From: Gemmatimonadota bacterium
GTDB lineage: Bacteria > Gemmatimonadota > Gemmatimonadetes > Gemmatimonadales > Gemmatimonadaceae
Assembly: GCA_021413975.1 (NCBI GenBank)
Contig: JAIOPJ010000021.1
Location: 124,001-188,000, forward strand
DNA length: 64,000 bases
Reading direction: 5' to 3'
The translations under genes and the position numbers were made by a program. The notes beneath the pieces are model-generated. The model ran no database searches. It had not been told where the DNA came from and was given only the letters and a program-made list of their open reading frames with translations. Positions 1-14,403 of this stretch are shown here, in pieces (the stretch's first letter is position 1; every line of letters begins with the position of its first letter).

Positions 1-1190
1 AGACCGAGGAGCCAGGGCACGAACGCCGAGCGCAGGGCGCGGTCGACGGAGAGGAAGTCCACGACGCCGGTCTGCCAGAGCGTCCACTCGGAGCCGATCG
101 TGGTGGCCAACGAGGGGTGCCCCGTGACGAGCACGATCACCGCATCCCCGTTGTCGGGGTTGATCCGCATCGACGTGTTGATGGCCGGCGCGTTGGCCCC
201 ATCGTGGCCATAGACGTAGGCGCCGCTCGCCGTCGGGGCGTAGAGCGCCACGCCGAGCCCCCAGATGTCGAGCCCGAGTTTGCGCCCATGTGGTTGCCGC
301 ATGCCTTCGAGGGCCGCCCGATGCAGCAGCAGCGCGCCGGCGCCATCATCGGTCCGCAGCTGGGCCTGCGCGAAGGCCACCAGGTCACGCGCCGACGCCG
401 AGAGACCGGTGGCGCCTGCCGCCGCATATCGATAGGTCGGGACGATCGCACCGCGTGCATCGAACGACCGGGACACGTTGTCGAGCGGCGCAAGGTACGC
501 GTAGGTCGCGCGCTGCATGCCGAGCGGGCCGAGGACCGAGTCCTGCATCCAAGTCGCGAACGGCATGCCGGTCACGTCCTCCAGCAGCGCCTGGAGGATG
601 AGGTAGCCGCCGCCCGAGTACTGGAATCCGCTCCCCGGGGCGCGACCCACCGCGATGGTGACGGTGGAGTCGGAGGACGCCCGCGGATGGCGCAGGGTCT
701 CCTGCAGCGACGGCAGGGATTCGCTGGGGAGGTAGTCGCCGAAGCCCAACCCATCCGTCAATCCGGCGGTGTGCGACAACAGCCGACCGATGGTCACCTG
801 TTTCTGATCGAACGTCCCCGCAGGGAGCTGCCACTGTTTGAGATAGGTCGACACTGGCGCGTCGAGGTCCAGCCGTCCGGCCTGCACCTGCTGCATCACG
901 GCGTAGGCGGTGAACCACTTGCTCATCGAGGCCAAGGGGAAGCGGGTGTCGCGATCGACGGGATCGATGGAGGGCTTGTACTGCTCGGCATCTACCCTGC
1001 CCTGACGCAGCAGGACTAGGGCGAAGTTGCCCTTGCTCTGGTCCTGAGCGAGCGCGGAGGCGGCTTGCATGAAGGCGTGCGTGTCGCCGCGGGGGGCGAT
1101 GGGGTGGAGCCACCAGCCTTGGATCGCGCCGTAGGCGGCGATGCCGGTCCAGGCGAGCACCGCAACGGCGGCCAGCAGGAGTCGTTTCAT
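1..1190 (-). CDS. Serine beta-lactamase-like hydrolase (partial, runs off left edge)
   Basis: From the ATG at 1190 the minus strand is open for 396 codons to the window edge, so the C-terminus is missing. A basic then hydrophobic N-terminus (residues 1-20) looks like a signal peptide or membrane anchor. The SxxK nucleophile motif is S88-M-S-K91, the second-site tyrosine motif is Y191-S-G, and H329-D-G sits where class C enzymes have the KTG box. This is the pattern of the class C beta-lactamase/PBP4*/esterase superfamily, which acts in the periplasm as peptidase, esterase or lactamase. The family is diverse, so no substrate is claimed. The next gene on this strand (1436-2437) is 245 bp upstream and the gap shows nothing recognisable. 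Confidence 0.85.
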   Translation of the reverse strand, partial: MKRLLLAAVAVLAWTGIAAYGAIQGWWLHPIAPRGDTHAFMQAASALAQDQSKGNFALVLLRQGRVDAEQYKPSIDPVDRDTRFPLASMSKWFTAYAVMQQVQAGRLDLDAPVSTYLKQWQLPAGTFDQKQVTIGRLLSHTAGLTDGLGFGDYLPSESLPSLQETLRHPRASSDSTVTIAVGRAPGSGFQYSGGGYLILQALLEDVTGMPFATWMQDSVLGPLGMQRATYAYLAPLDNVSRSFDARGAIVPTYRYAAAGATGLSASARDLVAFAQAQLRTDDGAGALLLHRAALEGMRQPHGRKLGLDIWGLGVALYAPTASGAYVYGHDGANAPAINTSMRINPDNGDAVIVLVTGHPSLATTIGSEWTLWQTGVVDFLSVDRALRSAFVPWLLG

Positions 1191-1435
1191 CGTTCGCTTG
1201 GGAAAGGGCGTCGGGTGTCAGGACGGCTCAGACTCGGGACTACGCATGCGCTGGGCGCGACGTTTCGGGGGGTACTGATGGCGCCAGAACGCTGCGTGCG
1301 ACCAGCAGTTGAACGGTGGCGCGCGGGCGGACGCCCCAAGCCGCGCACGAGGTATGGCACCGGCATCACGGGTATGCGGCCAGTGCTACGTCGGGCACGC
1401 GTCGTGACCCGGCTGCCGATGCGGTTCGCTCCGCG

Positions 1436-2437
1436 TTACTGGCGCACGAGGAAGCTCACGCCACCCACCGTCACACGCAGTTGCCCGGGGGCCTCTCGGA
1501 CGCGGACCCCTTGGCCTTTGCGCAGCGCACGAAAGGCGTCCAGCGTCTCCAGCAGTCGCGCCGGCGGCTCGCTGATGGTGTTGTGGGCTGGCAGCAGTCG
1601 GCGCAGCGACGGCGCCAAGGCGACCAGGCGCGTCAAGCTGCGCTCGTACGCTTCAACATCGGTGCCAGGCGAGAACAGCCAGATCGTCGCGTCGTAGTAC
1701 GAGTCACCGGTCCACAGCAAGCCATGCGCACGATCGAGCAACGCGACGGCGTCGGGCGTATGTCCCGGGACATGCAGCAGCTCGAGCACGCGCCCGCCGA
1801 TGTCGACGCGCTCGCCGTCCCTGAAGCGATGGGTCGTGCGCCACGCGCGCGAACGGAAGGCCGCGGTATCCACGCCCGACGGTGGCCCGTCGCAGAATGC
1901 ATCGCTCGCGACCTCGCTGGCGAGATCGGCATGCGGTCGCCCGGTCTCATGGTCTCGCGTGAACGCCGTCTCCATGCCCCACACGTCGCTGAACTCGGCG
2001 TTCCCACCTACGTGATCGAAGTGCGAGTGCGAGTTGATGACCGTCACCGGCAGCGTCGTGAGTCGCTCGACGATGGGTCGAACGGGCACCAGGCCGATGC
2101 CGGTGTCAAAGAGCAGGGCACGTGTGGACCCGACGATGAGGTACGCGATCGCTTCTTGCGCCTGTCGTGGTTGGTTGATGGCGAAGATACCGGGTTCGAC
2201 GCGGCGCACATCGAACCAGTCCGAAGCCACATCGACCGACGCGAAGGCGGCGTTGACGGGGCGCGGCACGCTGCCACACCAACTCACCGGCGGTGTCTCG
2301 CGAGCCGCCCCTGCGCAGGCGGAGGCAGCGCACACGATGGCGATGCGCAGTGGTCGGAGGGCACTCTTGACCCAGTGCCCGTCGGCACCGAGCTCACTGG
2401 CCGTCGACATCCGGCATGTCTTTGTCATACGTCCCAC
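1436..2437 (-). CDS. MBL-fold metallo-hydrolase, probably exported
   Basis: The 333-residue frame has the full metallo-beta-lactamase zinc set: HSHFDH at 137-142, H226 in HVPGH, D245 in LLWTGD and H285 in PAHN. That supports an active dinuclear metallo-hydrolase. A hydrophobic stretch at about 29-43 ending in a cysteine suggests export, possibly as a lipoprotein. The N-terminus before it is long, so Met10 or another start may be the real one. The family includes lactamases, lactonases and glyoxalase-II-like thioesterases, and the substrate cannot be told. The gene is probably transcribed toward the serine hydrolase below it. The 236 bp between it and the DinB gene hold no visible feature. Confidence 0.85.
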   Translation of the reverse strand: MGRMTKTCRMSTASELGADGHWVKSALRPLRIAIVCAASACAGAARETPPVSWCGSVPRPVNAAFASVDVASDWFDVRRVEPGIFAINQPRQAQEAIAYLIVGSTRALLFDTGIGLVPVRPIVERLTTLPVTVINSHSHFDHVGGNAEFSDVWGMETAFTRDHETGRPHADLASEVASDAFCDGPPSGVDTAAFRSRAWRTTHRFRDGERVDIGGRVLELLHVPGHTPDAVALLDRAHGLLWTGDSYYDATIWLFSPGTDVEAYERSLTRLVALAPSLRRLLPAHNTISEPPARLLETLDAFRALRKGQGVRVREAPGQLRVTVGGVSFLVRQ

Positions 2438-2673
2438 GGTGATTGGAGATGCTGGGGCGGTTCTCGCCGTCGCTTAACCTCGCGGTAAGCGTCCCGTCGT
2501 CGGCGTTCGCGTACCGGAACGGGGATGGGTCAGACAACGTGCGACCGGGCTACCTGTCGGACTGTGTGTGCCGCCGTACGCTCCACGATGCCTTCGGCGA
2601 CGAGCTTTCGCCAGACGAGTACCAGCGGCCCCACAGCCGCCACCGCCCCCGCGCTCGTCGACCGCAAGCGTCG

Positions 2674-3261
2674 TCATGAGGTGCTCATCGGGACACTCGC
2701 GAATCGGCGTTGTACGTTCTCGAGATGATGCCGATTGTGATAGACCGTGAAGAGCAGCATCTCGCGGATGGTCAGGCGCCCCAGGAGGGGATGCGGCAGG
2801 CGGCGCGCGTCCAGCGCTGACTCCGGCCAGTGCCCGATCGCGTCGCACAAGCTCGCGACGGCGGCCGCGTGCCGAGCCATGATGCTCGCGCGCGCGGCCT
2901 CCGGACTGCTCGGTGCCGCCTGAGGGCGCGGAGCGAATCGGCCCGCGCTGGCACCTTGCGCGAGGCGAGCCCGATAGATCTCGCGCACGGATGCGTAGGG
3001 CCGCGAGGGCGCGCTCGCTCTGCCGAACGCGAAGAACAGGACGACGTGGGGCACCCGCAGCCCTTGGGTGACTGCGCGCATCGACTTGGTCAGATGGCGG
3101 ACATTGTCGGCGGGCGACCAGGCATCGCCGATCGGCGTGAGGAACGTGCCCGTGGCGAGCGAGTCCCAGTACTCCACGCTCTCGCGGTGAAGTGCCTTGA
3201 GAGCCGATTGAATCGCGCCTCCGGTTGAACTCACGGTGTCGCGCAAAGCAGCTTCATCCAT
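2674..3261 (-). CDS. DinB-family putative metalloenzyme
   Basis: From the ATG at 3261 this encodes 195 residues with the DinB four-helix pattern. H56 (in NVRHL) and the C-terminal HNRHH cluster (175-179) supply the three-histidine metal site. DinB proteins include thiol transferases (bacillithiol, mycothiol) and many of unknown role, so the reaction is unknown. The frame is open upstream to 3354, but that part lies in the inverted-repeat element (3275-3439) and is low in coding character, so the internal ATG was chosen. With the GNAT gene at 3517-4056 it forms an accessory pair, each preceded by the same element, which suggests arrival as mobile cassettes. Confidence 0.8.
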   Translation of the reverse strand: MDEAALRDTVSSTGGAIQSALKALHRESVEYWDSLATGTFLTPIGDAWSPADNVRHLTKSMRAVTQGLRVPHVVLFFAFGRASAPSRPYASVREIYRARLAQGASAGRFAPRPQAAPSSPEAARASIMARHAAAVASLCDAIGHWPESALDARRLPHPLLGRLTIREMLLFTVYHNRHHLENVQRRFASVPMSTS

Positions 3262-3274
3262 GAGATCCGTTCGC

Positions 3275-3439
3275 AACGAGGATGTAGGAACACTCACTGT
3301 CGACTCTCGAACGCGGCGATGTGGAGAAAGCGATCGCCGCAGAGGCCCCAGCATCGACGATCGGCATTGCTTTGAAGATCGAAGCGCCCCGCATGCGGCG
3401 AGGCGAAACGCATCGCCGAGCTATTCTACAGCCTCAATG
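3275..3439. repeat. 165-bp inverted-repeat-ended element, copy 1
   Basis: The left end AACGAGGATGTAGGAAC (from 3275) is matched by the inverted right end TATTCTACAGCCTCAATG (to 3439). The interior is clearly related to the element at 4057-4220 but in opposite orientation: both contain TGTGGAGAA, a GCxCCAGxATCGACGATC block and GGCAxTG. The left end lies 13 bp upstream of the DinB ATG and the right end merges into the attC-like structure. It has no convincing ORF. It could be a MITE-like element or a promoter-bearing head of gene cassettes. Confidence 0.7.
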
Positions 3440-3532
3440 CCGAACATAGAATTCGCCGCAGTGTCATAAAGCGCCAGCGGAGCTGGCGCACACCTCACGA
3501 GTCTGCGGCGTCTGCTTCATGCATTGTTAGCC
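3431..3532 (-). other. Integron attC-like recombination site
   Basis: Read on the minus strand, the site opens with CTAACAATGCATGAAGC then GACGCCGC, which closely resembles the R''-L'' half of integron attC sites (CTAACAAT, AAGC, GACGCCGC). The site folds: CAATGC (3435-3440) pairs with GCATTG (3521-3526), CGCCGCAG (3454-3461) with CTGCGGCG (3503-3510), and a central perfect hairpin has GCGCCAGC (3471-3478), loop GGA, and GCTGGCGC (3482-3489). As in real cassettes, the stop codon of the upstream gene (GNAT, 3517-3519) lies inside the site. The other core, CATTGAGG, departs from GTTRRRY. No integrase gene is present in the window. Confidence 0.6.
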
Positions 3533-4056
3533 GCGGGCGCGCTGCTGCGGGCGACCAGGGCCATCAGGTCGGTCCATCCGTAGCCGCCATGAAACTCGCC
3601 GGCCGGGGAGTGGAGGCGCTCGGCACCGAGCGCCTCGTAGAAGGCATTCGCGGCGCTGCTCGCGTCGCCGAAGAGGAGCATCGAGCGTATACCGCGCTGC
3701 AGGAAGCGTTCGGCGGCGGCGAGCAGAAGGCGCTGGCCGAGCCCGCGGCGATGGAGTTCGCGTAGCAGGTAAATCTTGTTGAGCTCGCCCGCATACCCCG
3801 GGACGCCGCCATCGTGGGCACACCCCTTAGCGAACCCGACGAGCCGTCCGTCTGCGGCTTCGATGCCAATCACGAACGTGTTGCGGTCGGCTTCGCGGAA
3901 CGTGTGCGTCCACTGCTCCTCGCGCAGCGCGACAGTCGGCCCGCCCCCGCGCGGGGCGTGCGTCTCCGCGAAGGTCGCGACGTGCAGCGCCGCCAGCGCG
4001 GGCACGTCCGCGGCGCCTAGATCGCGAATGGTGTACGTCAGCGATTGAGTCTGCAT
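3517..4056 (-). CDS. GNAT-family N-acetyltransferase
   Basis: The ATG at 4056 gives 179 residues with a standard GNAT fold. It has an N-terminal IRDLGAADVPAL strand-helix, VGFAKG beta strand, IYLLRELHRRGLGQRLL acetyl-CoA loop (pyrophosphate-binding RRGLGQ at 103-108), and a C-terminal NAFYEALGAE helix-strand. It transfers an acyl group from acyl-CoA to an unknown amine, and small-molecule or antibiotic substrates are common for cassette-borne members. The open frame extends to 4173, but that stretch belongs to the upstream repeat element. The last codons and stop lie in the attC-like site, as expected for an integron cassette. Confidence 0.88.
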   Translation of the reverse strand: MQTQSLTYTIRDLGAADVPALAALHVATFAETHAPRGGGPTVALREEQWTHTFREADRNTFVIGIEAADGRLVGFAKGCAHDGGVPGYAGELNKIYLLRELHRRGLGQRLLLAAAERFLQRGIRSMLLFGDASSAANAFYEALGAERLHSPAGEFHGGYGWTDLMALVARSSAPAANNA

Positions 4057-4220
4057 AACGAGGATGTAGAATAGTCCGAGGTCCACTGCCCGGCCTGCTT
4101 TCTCCCATACCGAAACCATTGCCGATGCGGCGATCGTCGATACTGGAGCCAATGTGAAGGTCGCATTCTCCACAAGGAACCTGTCGAACTCAGCGGTCGA
4201 CTTATTCTACATCCTCAACG
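4057..4220. repeat. 164-bp inverted-repeat-ended element, copy 2
   Basis: GAGGATGTAGAATA (4060-4073) and its exact reverse complement (4203-4216) form 14-bp perfect terminal inverted repeats. The interior is homologous to copy 1 (3275-3439) read in reverse. One end touches the GNAT start codon directly (4056/4057). The other continues into the hairpin at 4235-4280. No coding potential was recognised. The position between a hairpin site and a start codon is the same as for copy 1. Confidence 0.7.
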
Positions 4221-4280
4221 TTTGGTTGTGCTGCGGGCACTCAACAGGATGCGGCGGCGAAGCCGCCGCTGAGCTTGCCC
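4221..4280 (-). other. Hairpin, possible second (partial) attC-like site
   Basis: GCGGCGGC (4251-4258), loop GAA, GCCGCCGC (4262-4269) form a perfect stem, extended by CTCA/TGAG and GGGCA/TGCCC (4235-4243 with 4270-4280). On the minus strand the next bases are AACGTTGAGG (to 4211), a GTTRRR-like core directly followed by the repeat element, as at the downstream site. A matching RYYYAAC core on the far side was not found, so this may be a decayed or half site. Confidence 0.35.
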
Positions 4281-4457
4281 CGATTTGGTGGACGCGTAAG
4301 TGATCGGCGAAATAGACAGACCTGCTTCGTCCGGCCGGATCAGTCCTCTCCCACCCGCTTCGGGCCCTACCCCACAGGTCGGTGGACCATGCGCGCCAGC
4401 ACCCCCACCGTCCTTCACGGCAGCATCGCAATGCCGTCGGCCCCACCCACACAACAA

Positions 4458-4490
4458 CAACGGGGAAGCGCCCCTAGCGCCCCCCCGTTG
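4458..4490 (-). terminator. Probable terminator of tRNA-Leu
   Basis: CAACGGGG (4458-4465) pairs with CCCCGTTG (4483-4490), with an inner GCGC/GCGC pairing. On the minus strand the stem is followed by TTGTTGTTGT. It lies 28 bp past the 3' end of the tRNA. The U-tract is interrupted, so strength is uncertain. The rest of 4281-4517 holds no recognisable gene. Confidence 0.5.
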
Positions 4491-4517
4491 CCATCCACCC
4501 GCTCCGATCTCCGATCA

Positions 4518-4601
4518 TGCCCAGAGGGGGAATCGAACCCCCATGAGGTTGCCCTCGACGGATTTTGAGTCCGTTGCGTCTGCCGGTTCCGCCATCCGGG
4601 C
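4518..4601 (-). tRNA. tRNA-Leu (anticodon CAA)
   Basis: On the minus strand the acceptor 5' arm GCCCGGA (from 4601) pairs with TCTGGGC (4525-4519), with one G-U pair, followed by discriminator A at 4518. The anticodon stem ACGGA/TCCGT encloses loop CTCAAAA, giving anticodon CAA (4565-4567). A long variable arm and the T-arm GGGGGTTCGATTCCCCC complete a class II tRNA. CCA is not encoded. It reads leucine UUG codons. The cassette region 2674-4280 begins just past its 3' end, a common insertion site for islands. Confidence 0.95.
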
Positions 4602-4645
4602 CACCCGAGGAACCTAACGCCCCCGGCCAGCCGGATGAAGCGGGA

Positions 4646-5287
4646 TCAGGCCCGGCCCAGCGGCCGACGCACACCACCACGCGGCGTCGCCGCGCCCGGA
4701 CGACCGCCGGGCTGCGTCCCGCCTATGCCGCCAGGCCGGCCTCCGGGCGCGATGCCCCCGGGCCGACGCGCGCCGCCACCCGGAGGAGCACGCATCCCAT
4801 CCTCGCGCATCTCCATCACGCGGCGCCGGATCTGCTCCTCCATCGCGAAGTACTTGGCCCGCTGGATCGGCGTGAGGAAGGTGCCGAGCTCGCGCTGCTC
4901 CGCCTCCAACTGCTCGAACCGCTGCCGTTGCACCGCGAGCATCTGGTCCAGCAACCGCGCCACCTGCGCCTGACGCGTGGTGTCCCCCGACTCCATCTCG
5001 TCGCGCAGGTCCATGCGCACGTCACGCTCGCGCGTCAGCAGCTCGCGCCGCTGCACGTCGAACCGGCGGTTCGTCTCGCCGAGCTTCTTCATCTGCTCGT
5101 TGTTGAGCCCCAGCTGCCGGCGCACCACCTCGGCCATGCGCTGACGCACGCGCGCCTCGAGCGAATCGCGCTCGGCGCCCTGCAACAGCGGCGGCGGCGG
5201 ACCGGGCTCCTGTGCACCGGCGGCAGCACCCGCGCCACCGAACAGGAGTGCGGCAAGGGCCAGGCGAAGGATCGATCGCGTACGCAT
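4646..5287 (-). CDS. Exported Spy/CpxP-like LTxxQ protein
   Basis: This 213-residue protein has a signal peptide (cleavage near AGA-Q26) and a long charged helical region. It carries two LTxxQ-like motifs, LGLNNEQ (59-65) and FLTPIQRAKY (137-146), spaced as in periplasmic Spy/CpxP chaperone-like proteins. The C-terminus (about 165-213) is low-complexity Gly/Pro/Arg. It is the last gene of the ECF sigma operon, with its ATG overlapping the anti-sigma stop by one base (TGATG). It may be an envelope-stress effector or sensor for that system. The sequence match to the family is loose. Confidence 0.7.
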   Translation of the reverse strand: MRTRSILRLALAALLFGGAGAAAGAQEPGPPPPLLQGAERDSLEARVRQRMAEVVRRQLGLNNEQMKKLGETNRRFDVQRRELLTRERDVRMDLRDEMESGDTTRQAQVARLLDQMLAVQRQRFEQLEAEQRELGTFLTPIQRAKYFAMEEQIRRRVMEMREDGMRAPPGGGARRPGGIAPGGRPGGIGGTQPGGRPGAATPRGGVRRPLGRA

Positions 5288-5901
5288 CAGCGGCTCCCCG
5301 GCGTGTCGACGACCGGCTGCCGCATGGCCGCCGGCTCGATCGTGATCTTCCCGTCGAACCCTTCGAGCTCGGTGAGCAGCGCCGAGAGATCGTCGGAGGT
5401 GAGGTCCACCAGCGCATCACCCACGGAGAGCTCGCTCCCCGCCGCTGCCGCCGGCGGCGCCGGATCGGTCGCGATCACCGTCGCGGTGTCGGGGGCCGAC
5501 GGCCCTTCGTTCGACGACGGAGTGCGATCGAGCAGGCGCAGCGAGAGCGACGCGACGATGAGCAGCGACGCCGCCGCGGCCAAGAGCTGCCGCGAGCGCC
5601 AGACGGAACGACGCGCCACCGCGGCGACGGGCTTCGCCCCGCCCCGCTCCACGCGGAGCACCGGCGCCGCAGAGGCACCTGCCGCCGACTGGCCCACCGC
5701 CGCGGCGATCGCCGCGACGTCCACGCGCGGCGCGCTCGCCCGCAGCACCAGCCGCGAGGTCTCGAGCACCGCGAGCTCGGCCGCGCACTCCGCGCAGCCC
5801 GCCGAGTGCATGCGCACCCGCTCCGCCTCGGCGGCCTCGAGCGACCCGTGCGCCAGCAGCGGCAGCAGGTCGCGCATCTCCTCATTCAGGCATTCAGTCA
5901 T
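5287..5901 (-). CDS. Anti-sigma factor with zinc-finger N-terminus
   Basis: The 204-residue protein has a ZAS motif H32-SAG-C36-AE-C39, a linker, one transmembrane helix (about 106-123), and an exported C-terminal part rich in acidic residues. This is the classic single-pass anti-sigma layout: the cytoplasmic zinc domain holds the sigma factor and the outer part senses envelope signals. It starts 8 bp inside the sigma gene, so the two are translationally coupled. Its partner is the sigma factor at 5894-6451, inferred from context. Confidence 0.85.
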   Translation of the reverse strand: MTECLNEEMRDLLPLLAHGSLEAAEAERVRMHSAGCAECAAELAVLETSRLVLRASAPRVDVAAIAAAVGQSAAGASAAPVLRVERGGAKPVAAVARRSVWRSRQLLAAAASLLIVASLSLRLLDRTPSSNEGPSAPDTATVIATDPAPPAAAAGSELSVGDALVDLTSDDLSALLTELEGFDGKITIEPAAMRQPVVDTPGSR

Positions 5902-6451
5902 CGCTCAGGTACTCCTTGATGATCCGCATCGCATTGTGGTAGTGCACCCGGCACGCGCCATCCGTGCTCTCCACGACCTTCGCGATCTCGTTGTACGGCA
6001 TCCCTTCCGTCACCCGCAGCGTGAAGACCTCGCGCTGCAACGGCGTCAACCGGGCCACCGCGTCGTTCACCCGCTTCGCCGTCTCCTCCGCCACCAGTCC
6101 GTCCAGCGCGTCGTACCCCACCACTGCATGTCCCTCGTCCAGCTCCACCCCGTCCCTTCGTCGTCGCTCAGTGCGCTTGCGGTCGAGCACCAGCCGTTTG
6201 CAGATCGTGAAGAGCCAGGTGCGGAGCGAACTGTCGGCCCGGAAGCTCTCCAGCGAGTTGAAGGCGCGTACGAACGTGTCCTGCACCAGCTCGTCGATCC
6301 TGTCCCGTTCCCCCAGGCTCGCCGCGAAGCGGGCCAGGGGCTGCGCATGACGCCCCACCAGGGCCGTGGCTGCCCGCTGATCGCCCCCCTGCCACTGGGC
6401 GATCAACTCCGCGTCGGTCGCGTCAGAGGTCCCGGGGACTGGATAGGCCAT
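5894..6451 (-). CDS. ECF-family RNA polymerase sigma factor
   Basis: The 185-residue protein contains sigma region 2 (DELVQDTFVRAFNSLESF, about 53-70) with the RTWLFTICKRL helix. It also has region 4 with the LTPLQREVFTLR and NEIAKV helix-turn-helix (about 135-165), as in RpoE-like ECF sigma factors. It heads a three-gene operon with its anti-sigma and a Spy-like protein, pointing to an envelope-stress regulon. It diverges from the glycerophosphodiesterase gene with only 49 bp between starts. I could not pick out an autoregulated promoter there. Confidence 0.92.
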   Translation of the reverse strand: MAYPVPGTSDATDAELIAQWQGGDQRAATALVGRHAQPLARFAASLGERDRIDELVQDTFVRAFNSLESFRADSSLRTWLFTICKRLVLDRKRTERRRRDGVELDEGHAVVGYDALDGLVAEETAKRVNDAVARLTPLQREVFTLRVTEGMPYNEIAKVVESTDGACRVHYHNAMRIIKEYLSDD

Positions 6452-6500
6452 GCGTTCACCCGATGAGACGCCGGCACCCCGTCGGCGTTAAGATTGGCTC

Positions 6501-7175
6501 GTGACCATCCCAGAGATCATCGCCCACCGGGGGGCCTCCCGGGAACGACCGGAGAATACCCTCGCCGCCTTCCACCGGGCAGTGGAGCTCGGTGCCGACG
6601 CCGCGGAGCTCGACGTCCACCGCACCCTCGACGGGGTGGTCGTGGTCCACCACGACCCCGGGATCGAGGGACTGGGGGCCATCCAGGCCCTGACCATGGC
6701 CCGGTTGGCCACCCACCGGGTTCGGGGCGAGCCCATCCCGACGCTCGACGAGGTCTTCGCGGCCGTCGGAGCGCGGCTCCGGATCTACGTGGAGCTCAAG
6801 GGGAGCGACGTCGCTCCCGGCGCGCTCGACTGCATCGCCCGGCACCCCACGGGGCCCGGCAGCGCGGTGCACTGTTTCGACCACCGGCTGGTGGCCGAGT
6901 CGCGCCGGCTCGCCCCGCAGGTGGCCCGGGGGGTGCTCGAGGTGAGCTACCCGGTCGATACGACCGGCGCCGCCCGCCAGGTCGACGCCCGCGACCTCTG
7001 GCGTCAGCGTGATTTCGTCGATCGCGCCTTCATCGAGGCCGCCCACGCCGAGGGCCGGCGGGTGGTCGCCTGGACGGTGAACGACGCCCCCCTCATGCGC
7101 CGGTTGGCCGACTGGGGCATCGACGCCATCTGCACCGACGACGTCGCCCTCGCCCGCGAGACGCTCGGCAGGTAG
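6501..7175 (+). CDS. ugpQ: Glycerophosphodiester phosphodiesterase
   Basis: The GTG start at 6501 gives 224 residues. Family signature residues are HRGASRERPENT (9-20), ELDVHRTLDG with the metal-binding E and D, VVVHHDP, a YVELKG strand and a C-terminal WTVNDAPLMRRL plus ICTDD. These match GDPD/UgpQ-type TIM-barrel enzymes that cleave glycerophosphodiesters to glycerol-3-phosphate and an alcohol. No signal peptide is visible, so it is probably cytoplasmic. Length is normal for the short bacterial form. Confidence 0.9.
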   Translation: MTIPEIIAHRGASRERPENTLAAFHRAVELGADAAELDVHRTLDGVVVVHHDPGIEGLGAIQALTMARLATHRVRGEPIPTLDEVFAAVGARLRIYVELKGSDVAPGALDCIARHPTGPGSAVHCFDHRLVAESRRLAPQVARGVLEVSYPVDTTGAARQVDARDLWRQRDFVDRAFIEAAHAEGRRVVAWTVNDAPLMRRLADWGIDAICTDDVALARETLGR

Positions 7176-7250
7176 CTTCTGCCGCCCCCACCGTCCCTCC
7201 CCGCCCGGCGCGCTCCGCCCCGGGCCCAGTCCTCCCCTCGTCTCCAGAGG

Positions 7251-8731
<1,481 letters not shown>

Positions 8732-8732
<1 letters not shown>

Positions 8733-10027
8733 TGCGCACCAACATGTTCCTGCGCCTCGCGGCGCTCGCGACCATCGCGCTCGCCCCCGTGGCGAACGCA
8801 CAGGTCATCGCCATCACCGGCGGAACGGTCTATCCGGTGAACGGCCCGAAGATCGAGAATGGCACCGTGCTCATCCGCGACGGGAAGATCGTCGCCGTCG
8901 GCGCGAATGTGGCCGTCCCCGCCGACGCTCGGCGCATCGACGCACGCGGCAAGTGGGTGACGCCCGGCTTCATCAACAGCGCGACCTCTCTCGGCCTGAG
9001 CGAGGCGGGCGGCCCGCAGTTCTCGGGCGGCTACGATGACACCGGGGCGCGCGGCACCGATGGCGTCGCAGCCTCGTTCGAGGCGTGGAAGGGGCTCAAC
9101 CCGGTCAACACGTTCATCATCCCGTCGCGGCAGGAAGGCGTCACGAGCGTCGTCGTCGCGCCCGGTGGCGGCATGGTGGGCGGGAAGGCGGCGCTGATCG
9201 ATCTCGTCGACGCGACTGCGGCGGTGGAGATGCTGCGCCGCGCGCCCACGGCGATGATCGGCGACTTCGGGAGCCCCGGTGGCGGATCGACCAACTCGCG
9301 CGCCGAGTACTGGGCCAAGTGGCGCACGCTCCTCGCCGACGTGAAGGCATACCAGGGCCGGCGCGCGGCGTACGAGGCGGGCAACTCGCGCACCCTCGCG
9401 GCCTCGCGCGCGGACCTCGAGGCGCTCATCCCGGTGGTGAGCGGACAGATGCCGTTGGCGCTGAGCGTTGATCGCGCGAGCGACATCCTCGCGGCCCTGG
9501 CCTTCGCCAAGGAGAACACCCTCCGCCTCTGGATCCTCGGCGGCGCCGAGGCATGGATGGTCGCACGCGAGATCGCGGCCGCGAAGGTCCCGGTCTTCAC
9601 CGGCGCGATGAACAACATCCCTGTCGACTTCAACTCGCTCGGCCAGCGGCAGGAGAACGCCGCGATGCTCCGCGCCGCCGGCGTCACGGTGGTGCTCGTC
9701 GGCAACGGCCCGGGCGGCGAGGAATCGTTCAACGTGCGCAACATCCGGCAGGAAGCCGGGAACGCGGTCGCCTACGGCCTCTCGTGGGACGAGGCATTGC
9801 GGTCGATCACGCTCGCCCCCGCCGAGGTGATGGGCGTGGCGGGGCAGATCGGTGCGCTGGCCGCGGGGCTCGACGCGAACGTCGTGGTGTGGAGTGGCGA
9901 TCCGTTCGAGTTCTCGTCGGTGGCCGAGCAGGTCTTCGTGCGGGGGCGGACCTTCGACACCAAGAGCCGGCAGCAGCAGCTCACCGAGCGGTACCTCACG
10001 TTGCCGCCGGGGTATCGGCGGCCCTGA
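8732..10027 (+). CDS. Exported amidohydrolase paralogue lacking metal ligands
   Basis: The 431-residue protein has a clear signal peptide (cleavage ANA-Q24) and the amidohydrolase framework (GGTVYPVNGP, GTVLIRDGKIVAVG, GKWVTPGF, and the C-terminal LDANVVVWSGDPFE). Where the upstream gene has IDTHSHLG this one reads INSATSLG, so both HxH histidines are replaced (A84, S86). The later His and Asp ligands are also absent (for example GNGPGG where an Asp is expected). It is therefore probably not a hydrolase of the usual kind. It may be a structural partner of the 7251-8732 product, with which it is surely co-transcribed. Confidence 0.85.
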
Positions 10028-13185: not shown

Positions 13186-14403
13186 TCAGAGCGTGAGGCC
13201 CTGGATCAGGTGGCGGGCGATCACCATCCGCTGCACCTCCGACGTCCCCTCGCCGATCTCGCCGATCTTGGCGTCGCGCATGAACCGCTCCACCGGATAG
13301 TCCTTGGTGTAGCCGTAGCCGCCGTGCAGCTGGATCGCCTTGATGGTGTTGCGCATGGCGAGCTCCGACGTGAAGAGCTTGGCCATCGCCGCTTCCTTCC
13401 CGTACGGATGCCCGTTCTGCGCGAGCCAGGCCGCGTGGTAGGTGAGGTGCCGCCCCGCCTCGAGCTCGGTCGCCATGTCGGAGAGCTGGAAGTGCACGCC
13501 CTGGAACTCGGCGATCCGCTTGCCGAACTGCTTCCGCTCGGTCGTGTACTTGAGCGCCTCCTCGAACGCACCCTGCGCCACGCCGAGCGAGAGCGCGGCG
13601 ATCCCGATGCGCCCCTCGTCGAGGGTCCTCATGAAGTTGATGAAGCCCCGCCCTTCCTCGCCGATGCGGTTCTCCACCGGCACTTCGACGTCCTCGAAGA
13701 TCAGCTCGCGCGTGTCGCTGGCGCGCCACCCGAGCTTGTCCTCCTTCTTGCCGGAGCGGAATCCCTTCATGGGGCCGATCGCGTCGTCATGGCCGATGCC
13801 GAGCCCCTTCACCTGCTCGAGATCGCAGGTGTCCTTGGTGAGCACGAAGCTCGAGATGCCCTTGGTGCCCTGCCCCGGATTCGTCACCGCCGTGATGACG
13901 AAGCTCTCGCCCACGCCGCCATGCGTGATGAAGCGCTTGGTGCCGTTGATGACGTAGTGGCCGCCCTTGCGCACCGCCGTGGTCTGCGTGCCACCGGCGT
14001 CGGAGCCGGCGTTGGGCTCGGTGAGGCCGAAGCCGCCGAGCACCTTGCCGCTCGCGAGGCGCGGCACGAGGCGGCGCTTCTGCTCCTCGGTGCCGAAGTT
14101 CACGATCGGCGAGGTGCCGAGGGTGGTGTGCGCCGAGATGGTGATGGAGTGCGAGGCGCAGACGCGGGCCAGTTCCTCGATCGCGATCATGAAGCTGATC
14201 TTGTCGAGTCCCGAGCCGCCGAGCTCCTCGGACCACGGGATCCCGAGGAGCCCGAGGTCGGCCATCTTCTTGACGTTCTCCCAGGGGAAGTCCTGGGTGT
14301 CATCGAAGTGGCGCGCGACCGGAGCGACCTCCTCACGGGCGAACGCGCGGACCATCTCGCGCGTGGCGAGGTGGTGCTCTTCGAAGTAGGTGGAGTCGTG
14401 CAT
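13186..14403 (-). CDS. Acyl-CoA dehydrogenase
   Basis: The 405-residue flavoprotein has the family's signatures: [15 protein letters not shown] (FAD/substrate loop), KRFITHGG, the [13 protein letters not shown] helix, [22 protein letters not shown], and a C-terminal GEGTSEVQR whose Glu385 sits at the catalytic-base position of short/medium-chain enzymes. It oxidises acyl-CoA to trans-2-enoyl-CoA, passing electrons to ETF in the cytoplasm. Chain length cannot be told; butyryl-CoA-dehydrogenase-like is the closest pattern. It stands alone between two intergenic repeats, with a run of AGGTGGG units just upstream of its start. Confidence 0.92.

Follow-up and report, generated by a model that had tools for sequence, protein, structure and literature searches.

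The minus strand of positions 2583-4282 is very probably a decayed cassette cluster, distant from any integrase, which was later hit by MITEs of an IS1182-related lineage that insert at the foot of attC sites. In order, the cluster would comprise the remnant attC(a), MITE 1, a GNAT cassette with attC(b), MITE 2 and a DinB-family gene with the weak remnant attC(c). It holds three attC-derived sites, only one of which has a fair score, and an integron integrase (IntI) above cut-off lies on another contig. By itself, attC(b) is a site of a known kind; the new part is the association of attC cores with IS1182-type elements and MITEs. Positions are those of the window, the whole stretch of 64,000 nucleotides analysed here (G000:C20:124001-188000), which comes from a host genome of 3.08 Mb in 56 contigs. 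The features are collected in Table 1.

Table 1. Parts of the proposed cassette cluster, in the order read on the minus strand
Feature	Position	Strand	Description
attC remnant (a)	4213..4282	minus	central hairpin and intact 3' half ...GCATCCTGTTGAGTGCCC-GCAGCACAACC-AAAC-GTT
MITE 1	4060..4216	minus	157 bp; terminal inverted repeats GAGGATGTAGAATA/TATTCTACATCCTC
GNAT acetyltransferase gene	3517..4056	minus	179 aa; Pfam Acetyltransf_1 46.1 bits
attC(b), the given site	3436..3532	minus	R3 score, fold, R'' common to host contig C11
MITE 2	3278..3435	minus	158 bp; ends GAGGCTGTAGAATA / TTCCTACATCCTC; flanks ATT and GTT
DinB-family (DinB_2) gene	2674..3261	minus	195 aa; Pfam DinB_2 47 bits; leader starts GTTGCGA
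attC remnant (c), weak	2583..2679	minus	TGACGACGCTTGCGGTCGACGAGC...GCTCGTCGCCGAAGG...GTGG; DinB stop codon inside

The site at the end of the GNAT gene and its neighbours

The minus strand of 3431-3532 starts with GGCTAACAATGC, has GAAGC and GACGCCGC inside, and contains the GNAT stop codon. Its fold has three sets of arms (outer, middle and inner) and a DNA MFE of -26 kcal/mol. The mean of 200 shuffles is -16.7 (sd 2.5), which corresponds to a z of -3.8, and no shuffle equals the site. The original prediction, that this strand reads like attC halves with AAGC, a three-arm fold and the GNAT stop inside, is confirmed by the sequence and the fold. It had also placed an attC at 3431..3532. The attC origin is upheld, as the site ranks first in 64 kb with a clade-specific model (below), but the site is shorter than claimed and is decayed: its R' reads ATT and its L' is diverged. 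Bases 3431-3435 are the start of the adjoining inverted-repeat element, MITE 2, so that the site proper is 3436-3532, and the final GAGGC that had been counted as attC is part of that element.

The anatomy of attC(b) is as follows: R'' GGCTAAC, a spacer, L'' with GAAGC, AGAC, the stem GCCGCAG/CTGCGGC and the hairpin GCGCCAGC-TCC-GCTGGCGC, and then, in the 3' part, TTTATGACA, the diverged L' GAATTCTAT, a spacer and the core ATT. The consensus of the attC boxes is RYYYAAC for R'' and GTTRRRY for R'. Here, the second base of R'' is off consensus, and the same R'' is found in two host attC sites on C11. R' is ATT followed by GAGG, having lost the G of GTT, which is invariant in attC sets A1 and A2. 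L'' and GAC are present, L' pairs poorly, and the single unpaired base of the MFE fold is on the 3' arm. In the clade, attC sites follow the order R''-spacer-L''-GAC-stem-central hairpin-TTTAT-stem-L'-spacer-core, and 16-base 5' arms are frequent. This order is kept by attC(b) as far as TTTATGACA-CTGCGGC, with L' and the core altered beyond. Judged on its sequence, attC(b) is a real, attC-derived and decayed site; it is probably a poor recombination substrate, whose activity would have been lost.

Two covariance models were built, with 80 loci around integron integrases and the arrays of family members as source. R2 is a general attC model made from 35 sites, arms only; it functions in general, its matches at E <= 1 in 100 loci numbering 148 when the training sites are counted. 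R3 is a clade model made from 25 full-length sites taken from Gemmatimonadota records and relatives' arrays, none of them from the window or the host genome. With R3, whose training sites were picked after the architecture of the window was known and whose E-values are rough, attC(b) is the first of only two matches at E <= 10 in both strands of the 64 kb (20.5 bits, E 0.0032). When filters are off in 2200-4700, 3431-3532 reaches 25.4 bits and spans all 101 model positions, and the top three of the 10 matches are attC(b), (a) and (c), all on the minus strand. Taken alone, the 20.5-bit score has an E of 0.15 at whole-genome scale and the case for attC(b) depends, therefore, on the combined evidence.

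A covariance scan of both strands had been suggested as a check, and its outcome is divided: R3 gives the 20.5 bits, and R2 does not list attC(b) among its matches (12 kb, filters off; lowest listed 4.7 bits). The best R2 matches in the first 12 kb are 12.5 bits (8814-8841 minus) and 12.3 bits (4183-4226 plus, which straddles the end of MITE 1). Negative results from R2 are weak, because the model missed both attC(b) and the array of G012, a single-contig genome of the host's genus. That array (L137 2866-19881, G012:C1) contains 18 forward attC sites, mostly of about 135 bases and scoring 27.6-55.9 bits with R3, none of which was listed by R2. General attC models can overlook cassettes, since R3 recovered the decayed attC(b) as well as these 18 sites. 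Blast with the 102-base site was uninformative: it gave three chance-like plasmid matches and, in 56 of 61 relatives' genomes, matches at E <= 1 to short pieces of hairpin or arm, the best besides the site itself having E 0.0016 in the 61 genomes.

Both remnants lie on the same strand as attC(b) and in register with it. The second and last match of R3 in the window at E <= 10 is attC(a), with 14.3 bits for 4234-4282. Its 3' half is like the host attC ends GCTGCACAACCAAACGTT (C49) and GGCACAACCAAACGTT (C11), its 5' half (R'' and L'') is unrecognisable, and the four bases at its end (4213-4216) are part of MITE 1. R3 gives attC(c) 12.4 bits (E 0.03; 2.5 kb, filters off) and does not list it in the scan of the whole window; this remnant could be a chance match.

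The GNAT gene starts at the ATG of the core GTTATGC, and attC(b) overlaps its stop. A homologue in Gemmatirosa (Gemmatimonadaceae, Gemmatimonadota) is 58% identical over 163 residues (gene at L191 14157-13678) and is flanked, in a long array, by attC sites at 14176-14273 (36.7 bits) and 13528-13623 (30.2 bits). In loci L044 and higher, GNAT homologues besides the host's were found only in Gemmatirosa, in two overlapping loci. From these sequence data the GNAT gene is a cassette-type gene. DinB, for which the same loci gave no homologue, is perhaps another.

The surroundings were also searched. A tRNA-Leu (CAA) at 4518-4601, minus strand, lies directly upstream of the cassette cluster and is a possible insertion hot spot. 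A comparison of 2560-4320 with phage sequences was negative at E 1e-5, and the two Rfam matches at E <= 1 in 1-10000 were the tRNA and a weak sR53, far below the sR53 gathering score.

Integrons in the host genome and its relatives

The search of the host for intI and further sites, which the original prediction called for, succeeded. IntI is encoded at C15:42-989 (L010 18-1004), scores 412 bits with TIGR02249, has a frame without stops and has its 3' end at the contig end; this layout suggests that the 3' end faces a presumed array. R3 finds at least five clear attC sites: C11:557-689 (55.7 bits), C49:37341-37475 (50.8), C11:1086-1219 (47.4), C23:44907-44998 (44.4) and C49:33766-33839 (26.2). 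A sixth is on C49 (28.1 bits). The low score that was to count against the site is seen with R2 and not with R3, and related sites do exist in the genome. The original prediction of CALIN-like cassette genes without an adjacent integrase is partly borne out, in that the GNAT gene appears cassette-type and no intI is nearby, with the proviso that the genome has its IntI on C15.

At least 35 of the 61 genomes have attC sites by R2 at E <= 0.05, the host not being among those listed. These attC counts are lower bounds, as the genome scans scored the best 150 of 5037 first-look candidates for R2, 150 of 4270 for R3 and 92 per genome in the R2 survey. In six loci, R3 found nothing at E <= 10 in L011, L013, L014 and L145 (62 kb), one site in G005, and the 18 forward sites plus five reverse-strand echoes in G012. 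The attC sites lie downstream of the intI 3' end, on the same strand, in G012, G015 (host's genus) and Gemmatirosa. In class 1 integrons, the orientation of attC to intI is opposite to this layout. The view that integrons are little described in this phylum did not survive: IntI is above cut-off in 34 of the 61 genomes, host counted, and integrons are already in print for Gemmatimonadota (excerpt of PMC8618304) and for the 1.1 Mb replicon of Gemmatirosa kalamazoonensis (excerpt of PMC9024848).

Three further observations concern attC sites elsewhere. On the 415 kb contig C5, R3 has an 18.2-bit match (L214 4799-4888; G000:C5:289798-289887) with two weaker matches nearby; it is a candidate site that may also be due to chance. 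Similar 61-base attC sites occur at L196 6796-6856 and L197 6815-6875 (both G005:C1) and at L195 5776-5836 (G008:C134); each is the only R2 site listed in its stretch, and those of G005 are more than 1 Mb from the detected intI. The cassette region of C23 (L213, about 7976-8541) has two genes that look by eye like a MazE/MazF-type toxin-antitoxin pair.

Two other readings of the cluster have to be weighed against these data. In one, 3431-3532 is merely a Rho-independent terminator or a chance hairpin 3' of GNAT that resembles an attC. A strong, GC-rich hairpin directly after a gene would fit this, as would the lack of support from R2, but no T-run follows the hairpin, R3 ranks the site first in 64 kb, the order R''-L''-GAC-stem-hairpin-TTTAT is that of the relatives' attC sites, the remnants (a) and (c) are in register, and the GNAT gene is a cassette gene in Gemmatirosa. 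This reading is highly improbable. The other takes the cluster to be a live CALIN, the attC sites of which still recombine and from which the host IntI could excise the GNAT cassette; it draws on the uninterrupted IntI frame and the good attC sites elsewhere in the genome. The core of attC(b), which is ATT and not GTT, its diverged L' and the missing 5' half of attC(a) argue against activity, and we consider a live cluster quite improbable.

Inverted-repeat elements at attC cores

Each gene of the cluster is preceded by an inverted-repeat element of 157-158 bp, positioned exactly at a core site. MITE 1 starts right after the core GTT of attC(a) and stops immediately before GTTATGC; MITE 2 starts right after the core ATT of attC(b) and stops immediately before GTTGCGA. 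Their left ends read GAGGATGTAGAATA and GAGGCTGTAGAATA, respectively. MITE 1 has GTT on both sides (left CCAAACGTT, right GTTATGC). The interiors of MITE 1 and MITE 2 match in inverted orientation, with an alignment score of 130 versus a maximum of 110 for 300 interior shuffles.

The host was searched with the end pattern TWTTCTACAYCCTCRWT. At two mismatches or fewer there are six places: the four window ends, C8:143-159 and C49:38134-38150. All six are at core-like triplets, a property partly built into the search, as the pattern contains the three flanking bases RWT and itself demanded them there. Another 11 places appear at three mismatches, and the control gave four matches in all. With the end patterns at two mismatches or fewer, no element copies were found at non-integron host sites. 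The C8 and C49 copies share 140 bp at 99% identity, both of their ends abut GTTAG, and they lead into MARYKHIDTNPRF, which by eye reads as a transposase start cut by the contig ends. The family assignment of these host IS copies, which is based on the element ends and on inspection by eye of 13 residues, is provisional; PF05598 was not found in the host genome. That the repeated ends were copies of attI was considered and dropped, since C8 and C49 continue into the apparent transposase start.

A longer element is present in G024, a genome of another genus. The criteria applied for the IS1182 family were a DUF772 plus DDE_Tnp_1_6 transposase and terminal inverted repeats. The G024 transposase (a query of 510 residues) matches PF05598, PF13751 and NF033551, the last at 239.9 bits, which is under its cut-off of 270, and the element has the inverted ends GAGGCTGTAGAAAA and GAGGCCGTAGGAAAA. 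An attC of 57.9 bits finishes in ...GCAGCAGAAGCAAACGTT, and the end GAGGCCGTAGGAAAA comes straight after it, with the junction exactly at GTT; the other flank is TTTGCG, not GTT. On a second G024 contig, an element of 159 bp with ends of this type is placed after a 24.9-bit attC, with GTT on one side and GTTAGGC on the other. The short elements of 157, 158 and 159 bp thus have similar repeats, with GTT on both sides in two of the three and ATT/GTT in the third; the interiors of the window and G024 short elements are not clearly alike. Four elements have both junctions known: two are flanked by GTT/GTT, one by ATT/GTT and one by GTT/TTT. PF05598 at E <= 1e-10 marks 10 places in 8 of the 61 genomes, and matching ends are found at one, G024:C412. 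In plasmids, three records carry relatives of the G024 transposase at 41-48% identity. In viral contigs, no relative of the transposase and no match to the element pattern (0) was found.

Similar junctions may occur in other phyla, on thinner evidence than in G024. GTT followed by GANNNYGTAGRA has three matches in 80 IntI loci (959 kb, selected for IntI and not for IS) and none in the complement control, a count that is illustrative, as the pattern was loosened after its cases were known at 1-2 mismatches. The reversed-sequence control of the earlier 1-2 mismatch search, in all loci including redundant ones, had 22 matches. The three matches are in L069 (Betaproteobacteria), L118 (Sulfuritalea) and L122 (Hydrogenophilales). 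The attC sites of L069 (28.2 bits) and L118 (33.5 bits) both end at the junction, and the L069 element continues into MARFKPYDYA. L122 has an attC-like end by eye and part of a transposase, its final 52 residues, with 83% identity to that of G024. L095 (Desulfuromonas) adds a further by-eye attC and IS-like end. The remaining 136 and 94 bases of L118 and L095 contain no transposase, and R2 with filters off listed neither the L122 nor the L095 attC. All four loci are near contig ends, as is expected of repeats that break assemblies.

The inverted-repeat elements could instead be ORF-less cassettes or regulatory leaders of cassettes and not transposable elements at all. Their exact placement, GTT on each side and between cores, is cassette-like, and they contain TGTAGAAT, which we take to resemble an extended -10. 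Against this, they show no attC of their own, their ends are similar to those of the IS1182-type element of G024 and of the host IS copies, their interiors are inverted between copies, and the -10-like motif faces inward at each end; we regard this reading as unlikely. A weightier possibility, although short of an even chance, is that the IS1182 family goes to any palindrome, with attC one of many and no attC-specific group. IS1272, a member of the same family, targets inverted repeats of varied sequence (excerpt of PMC5678879), and the 3.2 kb locus L260 encodes a distantly related, IS1182-like transposase (28% identical to the one in G024) and holds no attC. What speaks for a preference for attC is that the junction is at the same attC base in G024, L069 and L118, and by eye in L122, and that six of six host ends (two mismatches or fewer) are at core-like triplets, with RWT built into the pattern.

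Proposed course of events and known systems

Most likely, the cassettes were inserted away from attI by the host's own or an ancestral IntI, or were stranded via rearrangement; they lie just downstream of the tRNA-Leu gene. Afterwards, elements of the IS1182-family lineage would have inserted exactly at the 3' foot of the attC hairpins, beside the core GTT. In the window, this lineage would be present only as the two MITEs, mobilised in trans. GTT is often repeated on the far side, which points to structure-guided insertion with a short duplication. Such insertion would spare the attC on its upstream side as far as the GTT, as well as the core on its downstream side, and the MITE would become the leader of the cassette that follows. 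The upstream attC would be left with GAGG in place of RRRY. The window cluster would then have decayed further.

We propose an attC-core-targeting group of IS1182 elements with MITEs, a counterpart of the IS1111-attC group. The broader form of this proposal is that an IS1182-family lineage and its MITEs of about 158 bp recognise the folded attC foot and insert at the core GTT, in Gemmatimonadota and several proteobacterial integrons, and that the MITEs travel with cassettes and reshape and disable arrays; we hold the chances for and against it to be evenly balanced. If it is true, the repeated core would make the MITE a permanent leader of the cassette behind it, able to move with that cassette; integron arrays would then disseminate the MITE, which in turn would reshape them and in the end disable them. 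It suggests that a second, unrelated transposase family lands on attC hairpins. It also makes two ideas testable: that a transposase reads the folded single-stranded attC, as proposed for IS1272 with inverted repeats, and that MITEs ride with cassettes. Among the literature matches listed, a scope that leaves aside subscription journals, no report of IS1182 elements or MITEs targeting attC was found. The excerpt of PMC9137128 names IS1182 solely as a screened-for element and also mentions that cassette arrays contain transposase genes.

A CALIN is a cluster of attC sites lacking an integron-integrase, as the term is used in IntegronFinder 2 (excerpt of PMC9024848). The cluster resembles one: its genes are of cassette type and have sites derived from attC, intI is not adjacent and the genome has an integron elsewhere. 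However, its sites are decayed and one alone scores fairly, with the clade model only. The integron of Gemmatirosa kalamazoonensis is from the same family, has the homologue of the GNAT cassette and has its array 3' of intI on the same strand, whereas the cluster described here is separate from intI and includes MITEs.

For the IS1111-attC group, the references are reportedly Tetu and Holmes in 2008 and Post and Hall in 2009. This group (ISKpn4, ISPst6) consists of insertion sequences aimed at one attC end (excerpt of PMC11187229). The elements of the window and G024 are also at one end of attC, but their putative transposase family is of the DDE type (IS1182) and not the DEDD type (IS110/IS1111), and they differ further in having inverted repeats at their termini and short derivatives that resemble MITEs. 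IS1272, which is counted in the IS1182 family, targets inverted repeats or stem-loops and replaces its target (excerpt of PMC5678879). It shares with the present elements the putative transposase family and the stem-loop or inverted-repeat target; here, however, the hairpin of the attC stays in place, with the element at its 3' foot. Finally, group IIC-attC introns are likewise mobile elements that insert beside attC hairpins (excerpt of PMC8876359), whereas the window element is DNA with inverted repeats and no coding capacity.
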